Below the pieces are notes generated by a model. The model searched no databases, was not told the origin of the DNA, and was given only the letters and a program-made list of their open reading frames with translations. Source: Gammaproteobacteria bacterium (GTDB lineage: Bacteria > Pseudomonadota > Gammaproteobacteria > Steroidobacterales > XN24). Taken from it: a DNA stretch of 64,000 bases. Shown here one piece after another: positions 21,354 through 28,827 of the stretch. Each line of letters begins with the position of its first letter. Within the stretch, counting starts at the first letter, position 1. Both the position numbers and the translations under genes were made by a program. The stretch spans positions 1 to 64,000 of the forward strand of contig JAHEFR010000006.1 in NCBI GenBank assembly GCA_024640085.1, given 5' to 3'.

Positions 21354-21795
21354 CGCCGCGGTCCGGATCTTCGCCGTCACACCGCCGGTAGTCCGAACCG
21401 TCGAAGGCAGGCGTGCACATGCAATAGAAGATCAGGTCCTTCTTCCCGGTGTTCGTCACTTGCTGCGGGACGCCCGGGGGAATGAACACCACGTCGCCGG
21501 CGACGACCTCGACCTGTCGGATGGCGCCGATCCGGACCATGCCCGAACCCTCGATGATCAGGTAACGTTCTGCCGTCCGGTCCAGGCGATGAGTCTCCGT
21601 AGCCTGCCCGGCGAAAAGGCGGGCGCGGGCGATGGAGAGGCCGGGGTCGCGAGAGGTGTTCCAGGATTCCAGGATCGACACGTTCTCGGTGCTGGGGAAC
21701 TCGTCTCCCTGCGCGGGGCGGCAGATCACCTCTCCCCGGGGTCCCTCGGCGATCCGATGGCCAGCCTGCCGGGTCGGTCTCAGCCCAGCGGTCAT
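21346..21795 (-). CDS. Cupin domain-containing protein
   Basis: 149-aa single-domain cupin. Motif 1 is read as THRLDRTAERYLIIEGSG and motif 2 as GDVVFIPPGVPQQVTNTG, giving the two conserved beta-barrel motifs with a His, Glu and Gln/His set able to hold one metal ion. Similar proteins are annotated as mannose-6-phosphate isomerase-like cupins. Its ATG overlaps the stop of the 66-aa gene (ATGA) and its stop overlaps the permease start. Role unknown. Confidence 0.85.
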   Translation of the reverse strand: MTAGLRPTRQAGHRIAEGPRGEVICRPAQGDEFPSTENVSILESWNTSRDPGLSIARARLFAGQATETHRLDRTAERYLIIEGSGMVRIGAIRQVEVVAGDVVFIPPGVPQQVTNTGKKDLIFYCMCTPAFDGSDYRRCDGEDPDRGDG

Positions 21796-21992
21796 CCCGG
21801 GTCCTCCCCTCGCAGAAGCCTGGTCTGGGACAGCAGGAATTCCTCATCCGCGGGCGACAGGTCAAACCGGCGGCAGGCTTCCTCTACGGCCCCCGGGTCG
21901 TGGCGGCCTTCGTCGGACAGCCAGCGCAGCGCGCGCCTCAGGGCCTCGCTCCTGGGCAGGACGCCGCCTCGTTTCCGATCCGCTCCATTCAT
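21792..21992 (-). CDS. Small helical protein (66 aa), function unknown
   Basis: The frame begins MNGADRKRGGVLPRSEALRR, with AGGGGA suitably placed upstream, and ends in ATGA overlap with the cupin gene. The peptide is helical and charged, with RRALRWLSDEG and ACRRFDLSPADEEFLLSQ. It heads a three-gene minus-strand operon and faces the sheath gene across 133 bases. I do not recognise the family, though the coupled arrangement and good ribosome-binding site support expression. Confidence 0.65.
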   Translation of the reverse strand: MNGADRKRGGVLPRSEALRRALRWLSDEGRHDPGAVEEACRRFDLSPADEEFLLSQTRLLRGEDPG

Positions 21993-22125
21993 AATCGTTC
22001 CCCTGGACGCCAAGTGGGTGATTATCGGCTGCTTGCCGTGGGGGTGCGACCCCGGCAACCAGCGCGCTTGCGCGGGCCACATCCGTTTATGTTAATTTCT
22101 CTCAAACCACACGCTGGAGCCCCCG

Positions 22126-23694
22126 GTGCCCGAAAGGCCAATCCCAGGCATCTTCGTAGAAGAAGCCCCCCGCGGCGAACAGCCGATCGCCGCGCCGAAG
22201 GCCATCGTGACAGCGTTTATCGGCAGAACTCTTCGCGGCCCTGTCGACGACCCTGTGATCGTGGAGAGCGTCGATGAGTTCCACCGGGTGTTCGGGGAGC
22301 CGTGGGATGGTTCCACCCTGGTTCCGTGCCTCTATGACTACTTCGAGAATGGCGGCCAGAAGGCTGTCGTTGTCAGGGTAGTGAATGGCGGTCGGCGCGC
22401 CGTACTAAGGATCCCGGCAGGGGATACTCACCTGGTCCTCGAGGCAGCGGACCCGGGCGGGCAGGAGTGGCTCCGGGGCTCGGTGGATTACGACAACATC
22501 GATCCGAAGGAGGATCTGAGCTTCAATCTGGTCCTGCAACGGACGCGCGGGCCGGGGTCGGAACGCATCACGGACCAGGAGATCTACGCACGGGTTTCCG
22601 TGGATCCTTCGTCCAGCCGCTACGTGGGCGACGCTTTGCTCGAGTCAAGGCTGATGCGGTTGCAAGGTGCTGTCCCGAGGCAGCGCCCGGACAGAACCGT
22701 GGGCCCCGGCGTCGGATCACCGGTGGCGTGGATCTCGACGGGCAGTCGTGGTACCGACGGGCAGCGGCTGACCGACTACGACATCATCGGATCTGCCACC
22801 GAGGCCCGCGGACTGTTCGCCCTGCAGAAGGTGCCCGCGTTCCAGTTTCTATGCATCCCGCCGCCGTCACCGGTAGGCGACGTGGGGCCGACTGCTCTGC
22901 TCGCTGCCATCCGTTACTGCCGGCAGCGCCGGGCCATCCTGGTCATGAACCCACCGGCGTCCTGCCTTGGCGCGGACGATCTCACGGCCTATCTGCGGCA
23001 ACTGAACCTGAACAGCGAGAACGCCGTGATGGCGTTTCCCCGGCTCAGGGGCGGGAGCCTCCTGCCCGATGAGACCACGCGGGCGGGGTGTGGTGCGGTG
23101 GCGGGGTTGCTGGCGCGATCGGAGCGGGGCGCCGATGCGTGGAGGCCCTGGTCTACGGCCCCCCGATTGTTGCGTGGCAGCGCCAGGCCGGCATACGACG
23201 TGCCGGCCACGGACGTGGACCGGCTGGTTGCCCTCGGCGTGAACGTTTTCCATAAGCTGAGTGGCGGCCGGGTCGCCATGGCCGGCGAGCGGACCCTGGC
23301 CGGGGTGGATTGTCCGACTCCCACGCTGAGGTCTGTTCGGATCCGGAGGCTCTCGTTGCTGATCGAGGACGCCCTTCGCAACGGTACGCGGTGGGTGGTA
23401 TTTGAAGTGCCCGGGGAGGATCTCCGCGGCCGGGTACGCCGCCAGGTCGAGCAATTCCTGGCCGGACTCGAGGCCCAGGGGGCCTTCCCCACCGGTGGGG
23501 GCTTTCCGCCATTCTTCGTCAAATGCGACGTCGAGACCAACCCCCAGGGATCGGAAATCCGCGGAGCGCTCCACTTCATCGTCGGATTCGCGGTCGGGGC
23601 ACCGGGCAATTACATGATCTACCGCGTCAGCCAGACGGTCGAGGCCGCCAGGGTCGTGCCTGTCAACATGGACCGGTTCCGGTTCTCGGGCTGA
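22126..23694 (+). CDS. Contractile phage tail sheath-like protein
   Basis: 522-aa full-length tail sheath protein of the type used by myophages and extracellular contractile injection systems. The N-terminus MPERPIPGIFVEEAP is the classical sheath start, PVIVESVDEFHRVFGEP and YDYFENGGQKAVVVRVV follow, and the C-terminal domain has LIEDALRNGTRWVVFEV then LAGLEAQGAFPTGG. GTG start. No tube, baseplate, tape-measure, spike, ATPase or capsid genes flank it; neighbours are a cupin/permease operon and a gamma-glutamylcyclotransferase-like gene. It is therefore an orphan in this window. It may be a domesticated gene with a structural or other role; a distant partner locus cannot be excluded. Confidence 0.88.
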   Translation: MPERPIPGIFVEEAPRGEQPIAAPKAIVTAFIGRTLRGPVDDPVIVESVDEFHRVFGEPWDGSTLVPCLYDYFENGGQKAVVVRVVNGGRRAVLRIPAGDTHLVLEAADPGGQEWLRGSVDYDNIDPKEDLSFNLVLQRTRGPGSERITDQEIYARVSVDPSSSRYVGDALLESRLMRLQGAVPRQRPDRTVGPGVGSPVAWISTGSRGTDGQRLTDYDIIGSATEARGLFALQKVPAFQFLCIPPPSPVGDVGPTALLAAIRYCRQRRAILVMNPPASCLGADDLTAYLRQLNLNSENAVMAFPRLRGGSLLPDETTRAGCGAVAGLLARSERGADAWRPWSTAPRLLRGSARPAYDVPATDVDRLVALGVNVFHKLSGGRVAMAGERTLAGVDCPTPTLRSVRIRRLSLLIEDALRNGTRWVVFEVPGEDLRGRVRRQVEQFLAGLEAQGAFPTGGGFPPFFVKCDVETNPQGSEIRGALHFIVGFAVGAPGNYMIYRVSQTVEAARVVPVNMDRFRFSG

Positions 23695-23708
23695 CTGTAC
23701 TCGGCCTG

Positions 23709-24251
23709 GTGGCGCGACTCTCTCACTATTTCGCCTACGGGCCGGACATGCACCCGTTGCTCGGGCCGGCGGCGCCGGGCTGCCGCCTCCTGGGCGTGGC
23801 CTCCCTGGCCCGCTACAGCCTTCGCTTCCACAGGTGTAGCCCGGATTCCACCGACGATTCAGGCAAGTGCGACGCTCTTTATACGGGCAGGGCCGGCGAC
23901 ATCGTCCACGGGGTGTTGTTTCAGATACACGAGCGCAGGGTGCGGCCCGACCGGTCTGGCCGCGGCCGCAGGAGTGTTCCCGTCCGCGTGATGGCGGAGA
24001 CGGGGATGCGGGATGCCTGGATCCAGGTCGCGGACCCCCTGTGGATCGATCCGGCGCGGCTGCCGTTCGACTGGTATATGGCTCTGGTGGGAAGCGGAGC
24101 GCGCATTCACGGGCTCCCGGCCAGCTATCAGGCGCGTTTGCGTGTGGTCGGGACCCGCATCGATCCGGATCGCAAGCGTGCCGCCGGTTTTTTCGAGATC
24201 GCGCGCGGGACGCGCAAGATCCGGCCGTTCTTCAGGAGGCCGCTCGCCTGA
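23709..24251 (+). CDS. Gamma-glutamylcyclotransferase-like protein, probably catalytically altered
   Basis: 180-aa protein of the GGCT fold. YFAYGPDMHPLLGP near the start corresponds to the family's YGSN-M substrate loop, HGVLFQI to the second strand, and WYMALVGSGARIHGLPASYQARL to the C-terminal helices. Two key positions differ from what I expect: the loop Ser-Asn is Pro-Asp, and the segment that normally reads D-R-x-E (catalytic Glu) reads D81-R-S-G84. The enzyme may be inactive or have another substrate. The GTG at 23709 lies 14 bases after the sheath stop, without a clear Shine-Dalgarno, so translation may depend on the sheath gene. Confidence 0.7.
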   Translation: MARLSHYFAYGPDMHPLLGPAAPGCRLLGVASLARYSLRFHRCSPDSTDDSGKCDALYTGRAGDIVHGVLFQIHERRVRPDRSGRGRRSVPVRVMAETGMRDAWIQVADPLWIDPARLPFDWYMALVGSGARIHGLPASYQARLRVVGTRIDPDRKRAAGFFEIARGTRKIRPFFRRPLA

Positions 24252-24588
24252 GCCAAACCCGGTCCGGGGCATCCTGCTCCAGAACCAGGTGTGCTCGTGC
24301 CCGTTGTCTCTGCTCCTTCGCCAACTCGGTCCTGATTGCCTGGTCCAGCGCCGCCACGGCCGCCTCGAAACCCCGGGCGTGTGCGATGACGAAGAGAACG
24401 TCCTGCAAGGGGTCGGGATACTCGGCCACGCTGACCCAGAAAAGCTTCGCGTGACGACGGTCCATCCGACCGGTGTTGCCCGCCGGGTCGTCTATCCGGA
24501 TCGGATACTCGCGCAGCAGCCTGCGCCAGACGTCCAGCGGATCCCAGGATGGCGGCGTGGGGGCTTCGGGTTTCGATACCGGGTGCAT
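24232..24588 (-). CDS. Hypothetical protein (118 aa)
   Basis: Frame starting at an ATG at 24588 (MHPVSKPEAPTPPSWD), which overlaps the convergent GGCT-like gene by 20 bases. It contains WDPLDVWRRLLREYPIRIDD, a central KLFWVSVAEYPDPLQDVLFV stretch and a helical, alanine-rich end. The composition looks coded. An upstream ATG (24642) gives 18 more residues. I do not recognise the family. It lies between the sheath locus and the 3' end of the oxoprolinase operon. Confidence 0.55.
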   Translation of the reverse strand: MHPVSKPEAPTPPSWDPLDVWRRLLREYPIRIDDPAGNTGRMDRRHAKLFWVSVAEYPDPLQDVLFVIAHARGFEAAVAALDQAIRTELAKEQRQRARAHLVLEQDAPDRVWLRRAAS

Positions 24589-24692
24589 ATTCCGACTGAA
24601 TTGTTTGGAGGGATGAATCCAGCGCCAGCGGATCGACGCCACTGGACGGCACCGTAGACGATGCTAGCAGCCGCGGCGCGAAGCGTAAGTGA

Positions 24693-24721: not shown

Positions 24722-25193
24722 TTCTGGACGGGGAGACGTACATCGTGATGGTCGCGCGGACGACTTCTTGCCCCGCCGCGTCGGTCACCACCACGCCCAC
24801 CGGCACGTCCTCGGTCTCGCCCCAGTCACGGAGCGCCAGCGAGGCCTCGGCGATCACTCGTGATTCCGCCTTGCGCAGATAGGCGATCTCCATCCCCCGC
24901 GGTATCCAGCGAGTATCCGGCGGCAACGTCGACTCCATCACCAGCCCGGCAGCGAGTTCGCACAGGTTACCCATGGCCAGCGCGTGCACCGTGCCGATAT
25001 GGTTCTGGACCTTCCGGCGTTTGGGCATCGAGACGATCGCAGTCCCGGGTCGGAGATCCATGAACAGCGGTCTGATGGAGCCGAAATAGGGGGCGCGGAG
25101 ACAGATGATCCTGGTAAAGATCCAGCGCCCGAAGGGCAGGCCCGAGAGGCTGTTGTAGAGGCGGTATGCCTGTCTGGCCGTTTGTTCACTCAT
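24711..25193 (-). CDS. DUF4442 family hot-dog fold protein
   Basis: 160-aa protein. The N-terminal helices (YRLYNSLSGLPFGRWIFT) and then APYFGSIRPLFMDLRPG, KRRKVQNHIGTVHALAMGNLCE and MEIAYLRKAESRVIAEA match DUF4442, a thioesterase-like hot-dog family. NHIGTVHA contains the expected Asn-His pair. The start is fixed by an 8-base overlap with the end of the oxoprolinase gene (ATGAGTGA). A likely role is acyl-CoA thioester hydrolysis or binding, inferred from the fold only. Confidence 0.82.
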   Translation of the reverse strand: MSEQTARQAYRLYNSLSGLPFGRWIFTRIICLRAPYFGSIRPLFMDLRPGTAIVSMPKRRKVQNHIGTVHALAMGNLCELAAGLVMESTLPPDTRWIPRGMEIAYLRKAESRVIAEASLALRDWGETEDVPVGVVVTDAAGQEVVRATITMYVSPSRKLS

Positions 25194-28100
25194 CGCCGTT
25201 TCCGCTCGCGACATGGCCGTGCGCTCTGCCCGGCGGTCCATAACCGCCGCCCCCGGGCGTCTCCACGATAAGTACATCCCCCGGCTCAGCCTGGACTGCT
25301 CCCGTCGGACCCAGGTCGATGGTCTTGCCGTCTGCCCGCACAAGCCTGTTGCGGCCGACCACTCCGTCGTGTCCGCCGGCCATTCCGAAAGGCGCGACCT
25401 TCCGATGCCCCGACAGCACCGCCGCCGACATGGCCTCGCGGAATTCGATCTCACGGATCGCGCCGTCGCCACCCCGGAAACGACCGTCTCCGCCAGACCC
25501 TCGCCGGATCGAGAATCGTCTCAGCAGGATCGGGTAGCGCCACTCCAGCACCTCCGGATCCGTCAGCCTCGAGTTGGTCATGTGCGTATGTACCGCGCTG
25601 GCTCCCGCGAAGTCCGGTCCCGCCCCCGCACCGCCGCACACCGTCTCGTAGTACTGGTAGCGCTCGTTACCGAAAGTCACATTGTTCATGGTGCCCTGGG
25701 ATGCGGCCATCACGCCGAGAGCGCCGTACAGGGCGTCGACGACGCACTGCGACGTTTCGACATTACCTGCCACGACAGCAGCTGGCGGTCTGGGATTGAG
25801 CAGAGTGCCTTCGGGGACCACCAGCTCGAGTGGACGCAGGCACCCCTCGTTCATGGGGATGTCGTGATCCACCAGGGTCCGGAAAACGTACAGCACGGCG
25901 GCCCGGCAGACGGAGAGCGGAGCGTTAAAGTTTCTGTCGCTTTGGGAAGACGTCGCGGAGAAATCGATCCGCGCCGATCGCTTGGTCTCGTCCACGCTTA
26001 TGCTGACGCCGATGCGGCTGCCGTCATCCATGTGATAGATGAAATCGCCGCTGGACAGGTCGGTTATCGCCCGTCGCACGGCCTCCTCGGCATTGTCTTG
26101 CACGTGCTCCATGTAGGCGCAGGTCGTCTCGACACCGAACTGGCCCAGCATCCGGGCGACTTCCTCCTGGCCCCGCGCATTGGCGGCCAGCTGGGCCCGG
26201 AGATCGGCGATGTTCCGGTCTGGATTGCGGGCGGGAAAGGGCCCCGACGCCAGGATCTCGCGGATTTCCTCCTCGAGGAAACGACCGCTCCGCACCAGGG
26301 GGCGGCAGGGGATCATCACCCCTTCCTCGTCGATCCGGCGGCTGTGAGGCGGCATGGACCCCGGAGTAATGCCGCCGATATCCGCGTGGTGCGCACGCGA
26401 GGCGACATAGAACATTGGCGCGGTGTCCTCCGGCGTGGCGTAGCAGGGCGTGATCACGGTAACGTCGGGCAGATGGGTCCCGCCTCCGTAAGGCGCGTTG
26501 AGCACGAAACCGTCGCCCTGGGACATGTCGCCGCCGAATTCCCGGATGACCGTACGCACGCTGTCGCCCATGGACCCGAGGTGGACCGGCATGTGTGGCG
26601 CGTTGGCAACCAGCCCACCTTTCTGGTCGAACAGCGCGCAGGAAAAATCCAGGCGTTCCTTGATGTTGACCGAGTGCGCCGTCTTCTCCAGCACCACGCC
26701 CATCTGCTCGGCGATGTGCATGAACAGGTTGTTGAAGACTTCCAGCAGGATCGGATCAGCCTCCGTGCCGAGCCCGGCCTGCCGCGGGCGGGGGCGGATG
26801 CGGTTGAGCGTCAGGTTGCCGAGTTCGTCTGCGCGCAACCGCCACTGGGGCGTCACCACCGTGGTGGCATTGGCTTCCACTACGAGTGCCGGCCCGTCGA
26901 TGACGGTACCGGGCCCGATGGCGTCCCGCCGGTAGACCGGCGCGTCCCGCCACCTGCCGGCCAGATACACCGGTCGGACCGTCACGGGATCGGCCTCGCC
27001 CCGGGCGGCGACCGAGTCGATCTTTCCGTCGCTGCCCCCGCCCGGCGCAGTGGACTCGAGGGCGATGGCCTCGACGATCCGCTCCCGCTTCTCCGCAAAC
27101 CCGAACTGCTGGCGGTGTGCGGCGTCGAAGGCCTCGGCCACCTCCTCGGCGCCACCGGCCGGTAGTTCCAATGGCGTATCGGTACCGCCGTAGCGGATCA
27201 GCAGGCGTCGCTGGTGATGCACCGATGCCGGGTCCGCGCCCTGCTGCGCCAGCGCCGCCAGCGCCGCCGATTCGAGACGGCGGAAACGCTCGCCGAGGGT
27301 GACCAGGGCCGCGTCCGTCAGCGGTTCTTCCACCGCTTCGTGCCGGATGTGGCGCAGATCGGCCAGGCCCATGCCGTAGGCAGACAGGACCCCGGCCAGT
27401 GGATGGATAAGGACGTCTTGCATGCCCAGGGCATCCGCCACATCGCAGGCGTGCTGTCCGGCCGCGCCACCGAAGCAGCACAGGGCGAAAGCACTGACAT
27501 CGTAACCGCGCTGGATCGAGATCTGCTTGATGGCCTGGGCCATCCGGTCGACTGCGATCCGCAGACATCCGTCGGCGATCTGCTCTACCGGGAGGTCCTG
27601 TCCCGATTCCTTCGCTATCCGGGATCTCATGCGACCGAAGGCAGCGCGGACGGATTCCGCGTCCAGGGCCAGGTCGGCTCCCGGACCGAATACTCTGGGG
27701 AAAAACTCCGGCTGGATCCTCCCCAGGAGGAGGTTGGCATCGGTCACGGTCAGAGGGCCGCCCCGGCGATAACAACAGGGGCCCGGATCAGCGCCGGCGG
27801 ACTGCGGCCCGACCTGAAGGCGGCCGTCGACAAGGTCGACGACCGAGCCGCCGCCGGCGGCCACAGTGTGTACCTTCATCATCGGCGCCTGGATCCTGAC
27901 GCCAGCGACGACGCTGTCCAGAGTGCGCTCGAAAACACCGTCGTAGAGGGAAACATCCGTGGACGTCCCCCCCATGTCGAAGCCGATCATCCGGGAGCGC
28001 CCCGCGCGCAGGGCCGTCTCCACCATTCCCACGACCCCGCCGGCCGGCCCCGAAAGGACGCTGTCTTTGCCTCGGAAATGAGCGGCTTCTGCGAGTCCGC

Positions 28101-28827
28101 CGTTGCTCTGCATGAACAGCAGCCGGGTGTCGCCGAGGGTGCCTGCCACGCCATCGATATAGCGCCTGAGGACTGGCGAGAGGTAGGCATCAGCCACCGT
28201 GGTGTCGCCTCGGGCGACCAGTTTTGCGAGGGCCCCGACGCGGTGAGAGACTGACACCTGCGGGAAGCCCGACTCCCGGGCAATTCTCTCGGCCATCCGT
28301 TCGTGATGGTGATGGCGGTAGCCGTGCATGAATACGATGGCGACCGACCTGTATCCGTCCCTGACCGCTTCCCTCAGATCGCGGCCCAGGGCCTCCTGGT
28401 CCAGCGGAGTGATCACCCCGCCGTCACTGTCGATCCTCTCGTCGACTTCGACGACCCGGCGGTAGAGGCTTTCCGGGAGTCGGATCTCCCGGTCGAACAG
28501 CCGCGGTCTTTGCTGGTAGCCGATTCGCAGCGCATCGCCGAAGCCCCGCGTAATCACCAGGACCGTGTCTTCGCCGTGTCGTTCCAGCAATGCATTCGTG
28601 GCCACTGTCGTGCCCATCTTGACCGCGTCGACGGCATCGTAGGAGCCCGGTGGCTGCCCGGCTTCGGCGAGTATCCGGTCGAGGCCGGCGATGGCGGCGT
28701 CATCGTAGCGATCCGGGTTCACCGACAGCAGCTTCCGGGCGATCAGACTGCCATCCGGGCAACGGGCGACCACGTCGGTGAACGTGCCGCCGCGATCGAT
28801 CCAGAATTGCCAGCCGCCTTGCGCCAA
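25186..28827 (-). CDS. Fused hydantoinase A/B-type protein, 5-oxoprolinase-like
   Basis: 1213-aa ATP-dependent amidase combining both subunits in one chain. The A half starts WIDRGGTFTDVVARCPDG, has MGTTVATNALLERHGE, GFDMGGTSTDVSLYDG and a glycine-rich AAGGGSVVDL. The B half begins near residue 690 (PILLEVFNNLFMHIAEQMG), with MPVHLGSMGDSV, NAPYGGGTHLPD and the C-terminal TPGGGGYGPP. This arrangement is that of eukaryotic-type 5-oxoprolinase OPLAH, which opens 5-oxo-L-proline to glutamate using ATP. Its length is close to those enzymes. TTG start with GGAG eight bases upstream. The gene diverges from the symporter operon. A hydantoinase or acetone-carboxylase-like activity is the main alternative. 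Confidence 0.88.
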   Translation of the reverse strand: MAQGGWQFWIDRGGTFTDVVARCPDGSLIARKLLSVNPDRYDDAAIAGLDRILAEAGQPPGSYDAVDAVKMGTTVATNALLERHGEDTVLVITRGFGDALRIGYQQRPRLFDREIRLPESLYRRVVEVDERIDSDGGVITPLDQEALGRDLREAVRDGYRSVAIVFMHGYRHHHHERMAERIARESGFPQVSVSHRVGALAKLVARGDTTVADAYLSPVLRRYIDGVAGTLGDTRLLFMQSNGGLAEAAHFRGKDSVLSGPAGGVVGMVETALRAGRSRMIGFDMGGTSTDVSLYDGVFERTLDSVVAGVRIQAPMMKVHTVAAGGGSVVDLVDGRLQVGPQSAGADPGPCCYRRGGPLTVTDANLLLGRIQPEFFPRVFGPGADLALDAESVRAAFGRMRSRIAKESGQDLPVEQIADGCLRIAVDRMAQAIKQISIQRGYDVSAFALCCFGGAAGQHACDVADALGMQDVLIHPLAGVLSAYGMGLADLRHIRHEAVEEPLTDAALVTLGERFRRLESAALAALAQQGADPASVHHQRRLLIRYGGTDTPLELPAGGAEEVAEAFDAAHRQQFGFAEKRERIVEAIALESTAPGGGSDGKIDSVAARGEADPVTVRPVYLAGRWRDAPVYRRDAIGPGTVIDGPALVVEANATTVVTPQWRLRADELGNLTLNRIRPRPRQAGLGTEADPILLEVFNNLFMHIAEQMGVVLEKTAHSVNIKERLDFSCALFDQKGGLVANAPHMPVHLGSMGDSVRTVIREFGGDMSQGDGFVLNAPYGGGTHLPDVTVITPCYATPEDTAPMFYVASRAHHADIGGITPGSMPPHSRRIDEEGVMIPCRPLVRSGRFLEEEIREILASGPFPARNPDRNIADLRAQLAANARGQEEVARMLGQFGVETTCAYMEHVQDNAEEAVRRAITDLSSGDFIYHMDDGSRIGVSISVDETKRSARIDFSATSSQSDRNFNAPLSVCRAAVLYVFRTLVDHDIPMNEGCLRPLELVVPEGTLLNPRPPAAVVAGNVETSQCVVDALYGALGVMAASQGTMNNVTFGNERYQYYETVCGGAGAGPDFAGASAVHTHMTNSRLTDPEVLEWRYPILLRRFSIRRGSGGDGRFRGGDGAIREIEFREAMSAAVLSGHRKVAPFGMAGGHDGVVGRNRLVRADGKTIDLGPTGAVQAEPGDVLIVETPGGGGYGPPGRAHGHVASGNGDE

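Follow-up and report, generated by a model that had tools for sequence, protein, structure and literature searches.

A tube-less contractile tail sheath gene with inverted sequence constraint across the order containing Steroidobacteraceae

Introduction

Contractile machines have been repurposed as whole assemblies, as in type VI secretion systems (T6SS), eCIS and R-pyocins. Functional sheaths are woven by a handshake between the N- and C-terminal strands of neighbouring subunits (PMC10457771), while an attachment helix contacts the tube and extra domains face outward (PMC8894135). The core genes of eCIS are linked, and comprise the gp19 tube, gp25, the Pvc16/DUF4255 cap, an AAA ATPase and the spike (PMC8213781).

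In this study we analyzed a sheath gene located in a 64,000-nucleotide stretch of a gammaproteobacterial genome (GCA_024640085.1, contig JAHEFR010000006.1, positions 1 to 64,000), hereafter the window. A first-pass annotation, made from the letters of the window, had described it as an orphan among ordinary metabolic genes, and had offered a domesticated structure or a split locus as explanations.

Results

The sheath gene occupies positions 22126-23694 of the forward strand, comprises 522 codons with a GTG start, and is defined by its open reading frame, by profile and structure matches, and by its orthologues. The PHROG_23 tail sheath profile aligns to residues 8-506 of the 522-aa protein (3.4e-29), and in Pfam the sheath C-terminal domain alone is matched, below the cut-off. 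Among solved structures in the PDB, the sheaths 8bky (Streptomyces CIS) and 9ezm (H. borinquense) match at 1e-31 to 1e-28. The AlphaFold model (mean pLDDT 87.9, with residues 1-16 and 517-522 below 50) adopts the sheath fold, its top PDB match being again 9ezm (E 2.2e-28, TM 0.70/0.74). By both fold and profile, the product belongs to the contractile tail sheath protein family. High-scoring orthologues contain no internal stops, and dN/dS (Nei-Gojobori) ranged from 0.07 to 0.26 in seven pairs; between the window gene and close relatives it was 0.12-0.20, values that are rough because dS is high. These ratios, together with the intact orthologues, indicate a real coding sequence, and the full-length, intact gene of 522 codons reported in the first-pass annotation is thereby confirmed.

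No tail or eCIS gene had been seen near the sheath, and a search of the complete genome for tube and gp25 genes had been proposed. The absence extends past 20 kb: neither of these two families, nor Pvc16_N or CIS_tube, was detected by profile searches of the whole 3.19-Mb source genome, which covered these four families. The same genome holds no second sheath copy, so that the isolation of this single-copy gene is genome-wide, and of the linked core genes by which an eCIS is recognized, tube, gp25 and cap went undetected. Beside the window gene and the other lone sheaths, no match was obtained with any eCIS protein used as a query, the ATPase among them, and no remnant eCIS genes were found there.

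This pattern is shared by the order containing Steroidobacteraceae, a group of soil and sediment bacteria: 209 of 247 genomes, belonging to 55 of 62 genera, carry the sheath, nearly always as one copy. A few of the 209 matches are weak (e.g., G011, G014, G021, G497) and may represent fragments or the sheaths of ordinary CIS. Profile searches of these genomes, mostly draft MAGs, recovered the gp19 tube in 11/247, Pvc16_N in 8/247 and CIS_tube in 8/247. The tube and other eCIS parts thus go undetected in about 95% of the order's genomes, and a split locus with its partner elsewhere is not supported. The same counts bear on whether the protein still serves a working injection machine, with tube and baseplate too diverged to recognize or shared with another system. 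Diverged proteins can indeed escape profile searches, and six genomes (G012, G014, G488, G545, G557, G610) own a real, separate CIS with gp19 tube, Pvc16_N and CIS_tube; however, three to four eCIS families would have to be missed jointly in that large majority of genomes, no small conserved gene goes along with the sheath, and the tube-facing and handshake residues are precisely those that drift, as described below. We therefore consider a surviving machine very improbable. In one genome of family f10, a short gp19-tube-like fragment of 48 profile positions was observed within an 81-aa open frame (L143, G028:C56:28933-29076), which may be left over from the lost machine.

Sheath homologues were found in 40 of 59 relatives. 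A GTDB-220 scan, queried with a 10-row sheath alignment, returned named matches in gammaproteobacterial, proteobacterial or unplaced records, including the isolates Steroidobacter gossypii and Povalibacter uvarum, whose sheaths group with family f11 in the tree and so identify the order as the one containing Steroidobacteraceae. Within a class sample of 370 genomes, the next-best sheath homologues (about 400-466 bits) belong to other orders. All 13 sister loci sampled, from other gammaproteobacterial orders, have a tube gene immediately after the sheath gene, and those examined also carry T4_baseplate, Pvc16_N, AAA ATPase and eCIS_core genes. When 71 sheaths were placed in a maximum-likelihood tree, the 44 lone sheaths formed a single clade (100/98), whose sister group is the 13 tube-bearing eCIS sheaths. 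Inside the lone clade, the sampled families each group apart and follow family taxonomy, as expected under vertical inheritance. The exception is L046 (9187-10704, forward strand), a more canonical sheath that genome G026 carries in addition to its lone sheath; it falls inside the tubed clade, yet its surroundings contain neither a tube nor any eCIS gene within 20 kb. Capture of an eCIS sheath thus happened a single time; its machine was then lost, and the sheath has been passed on vertically under purifying selection.

A decayed prophage, which the first-pass annotation had named as a finding that would overturn its reading, is refuted by the intact orthologues and by tblastn searches (1e-5) of 50,697 phage records, in which no relative was found; phage genes nearby are absent as well. 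A single isolated gene from a multi-gene machine is what a functionless, decaying remnant of a prophage or an eCIS could leave behind, but stop-free, full-length orthologues persist in many families with the low dN/dS given above, 80 positions are near-invariant over 107 lone sheaths, and phage relatives are lacking. Such a remnant can be dismissed almost entirely.

The genes flanking the sheath in the window are metabolic, as first annotated. Across lone-sheath loci the neighbours vary by family and include a PLP enzyme (named from its sequence, with no profile) in 20/37 loci, a hydantoinase/oxoprolinase in 17/37, EamA in 13/37 and a GGCT-like gene in 10/37. The GGCT-like gene noted after the sheath is present in the window as an open reading frame at about 23691-24251 of the forward strand (start not settled) with a weak GGCT/AIG2-like match (PF13772, E 0.0017, below the cut-off), but the order of sheath and GGCT is not general. 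GGCT was accordingly rejected as a general partner, its homologues lying near the sheath mainly in the window's own family. Oxoprolinase, the PLP enzyme and EamA were rejected as well, as shared chromosomal context that shifts by family; the oxoprolinase gene is convergent, and therefore offers no operon logic with the sheath. This gene (25186-28827) lies about 1 kb from the GGCT-like gene, and the two possibly form a pair making and using 5-oxoproline. In 78 of 116 loci a YkuD/LysM L,D-transpeptidase gene precedes the sheath on its strand, often at a distance of 80-350 bp (e.g., L103:5330-6568); it is absent in the window's own family, and was rejected as a required partner. Two small reverse-strand frames, both sheath-adjacent mostly in the window's family, match no Pfam family above the cut-off: one of 136 aa (24232-24642; six loci) and one of 96 aa with a weak ribbon-helix-helix hint (21792-22082; seven loci). 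A sigma-70 promoter scan found none. Since no gene is constant beside the sheath, the protein probably works by itself or together with factors encoded elsewhere.

To compare constraint along the protein, we fitted a single scale factor to each region on fixed trees; the resulting relative rates are given here in the order lone, sister-tubed and outgroup-tubed. The N-terminal handshake arm (residues 1-28, 22126-22209, forward strand as for all regions; low model confidence in residues 1-16) is fast in lone and slow in tubed sheaths (1.21, 0.27 and 0.45). The same holds for the C-terminal tube-facing and handshake region (residues 401-510, 23326-23655), both in residues 401-470 (1.21, 0.31 and 0.52) and in residues 471-510 (1.46, 0.30 and 0.49). 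The N-terminal core (residues 29-88, 22210-22389) is the slowest region of the lone sheath (0.65, 0.85 and 1.03), and the outward insertion domain (residues 89-235, 22390-22830) is likewise slower in lone than in tubed sheaths (0.85, 1.75 and 1.91). At a matched overall identity near 0.5, pairwise identity in lone versus tubed sheaths was 0.24 versus 0.81 in the N-terminal arm, 0.55 versus 0.28 in the insertion and 0.33 versus 0.73 in residues 471-510, these values being not independent and the sister comparison comprising 13 sequences. Most invariant residues of the lone sheath sit in the N-core and the insertion; among the near-invariant positions (at least 90% conserved), residues 91-235 hold 37, residues 1-25 and 471-522 hold none, and those of the insertion include Q138, R139, Q151, E152, R187, D217, Y218 and D219.

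Constraint is inverted: in tubed sheaths the arm and the C-terminal domain are slowest and the insertion is fastest, whereas in lone sheaths the arms and the C-terminus are fastest. The outgroup rates resemble those of the sister group, and the lone profile is therefore the derived state. Handshake arms and a C-terminal domain conserved as in tubed sheaths (0.27-0.52) were not found in lone sheaths (1.21-1.46), although the window's own family retains more canonical arm and C-terminal sequence than other families. With handshake and tube contacts drifting and the outward domain conserved, deep constraint has left the parts needed for assembly and now rests on the outward one. Neutral relaxation alone was rejected as an account of the C-domain: among close relatives its dN/dS is still low, so that purifying selection persists and the domain is not useless. 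Predicted by itself, the insertion domain still folds (pLDDT 84.8); its only structural match below E 0.001 was a sheath, and a profile search was empty, so that its resemblance to sheaths alone indicates no chemistry.

These rates also weigh on the possibility that the lone protein polymerizes by itself into tube-less, sheath-like tubules (polysheath), serving as an intracellular filament or scaffold. The sheath fold is kept, as the AlphaFold model and its 9ezm match indicate, and phage sheath proteins produced recombinantly can form polysheaths with no other viral protein present (PMC6357053). The weaving N- and C-terminal strands, however, lack deep conservation and are modelled with low confidence at the ends, and one orthologue (L037) is without most of the arm; we regard self-assembly as unlikely, though less so than a surviving machine.

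Discussion

By the definition in PMC8987985, an exapted gene is one that, once its parent system has been lost, is inherited vertically and stays under purifying selection. The lone sheath shows both vertical descent and purifying selection, as expected of an exapted (domesticated) mobile-element gene, and we hold its exaptation to be highly probable. The domesticated half of the "domesticated structure" first suggested is strongly supported by the order-wide, single-copy, vertical occurrence under purifying selection with no machine, whereas "structure" is open to doubt, since the arms needed for assembly are no longer deeply conserved.

The explanation that we favor, and judge likely as a whole, is that a tube-less sheath was kept as a vertically inherited single gene with a new, non-contractile role. 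The ancestor of the order would have borne an eCIS-type contractile machine, of which tube, baseplate, cap and ATPase were presumably lost and the sheath gene retained, to be inherited vertically thereafter as a single-copy, housekeeping-like gene. The present protein would make no woven contractile sheath, given the absent tube and handshake arms that are no longer deeply conserved. A cytoplasmic location is probable, as suggested by an N-terminus that, as read, is not hydrophobic, and the protein may work there as a monomer or small oligomer. Its rigid N-core could display the insertion domain, which once formed the outer part, to some partner or ligand, with the newly invariant polar residues Q138, R139, Q151, T191, Y218, D219 and S223 as candidate surface residues. 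That the sheath was converted once, long ago, into an order-wide core cellular protein, with an injection-unrelated function exerted through this former decoration domain, seems rather probable; for a non-contractile role through the insertion domain specifically, the balance is only slightly favorable.

The spring protein appears to have outlived its machine and to be now a near-universal gene of an order. If this is true, contractile machinery has been exapted in a way not described before, through one component instead of a whole assembly. The inverted constraint provides a natural experiment on the purpose of each sheath part, and the presence of the gene in cultured Steroidobacter gossypii and Povalibacter uvarum makes its role testable by deletion and microscopy.

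Comparison with known systems

The sheaths of eCIS (Streptomyces coelicolor CIS 8bky/8bl4, H. borinquense 9ezm, Afp2-4 and Pvc2-4) share the fold of the lone protein, with full-length homology in the nearest. They differ in that the lone sheath resides in a genome without detected gp19, gp25, Pvc16_N or CIS_tube, and in that its arms and C-terminal domain are fast instead of slow and its insertion domain conserved instead of variable. Likeness to the sheaths of myophages and R-pyocins (phage P1, T4 gp18, pyocin R2) consists of the sheath fold and the PHROG_23 profile, but the lone gene has no match in phage records and no phage genes around it. The type VI secretion sheath TssB/TssC (VipA/VipB) has a distantly related sheath fold; it is a two-protein sheath within a complete secretion locus, and the searches made relate the lone gene to neither protein. 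Surveys of eCIS demand clusters of core genes (PMC8213781), so that lone sheaths are filtered out by design, and in the open-access literature searched we found no description of a lone, orphan or domesticated sheath. The protein family is known, while its tube-less, order-wide and constraint-inverted form is new to the extent that this could be checked.
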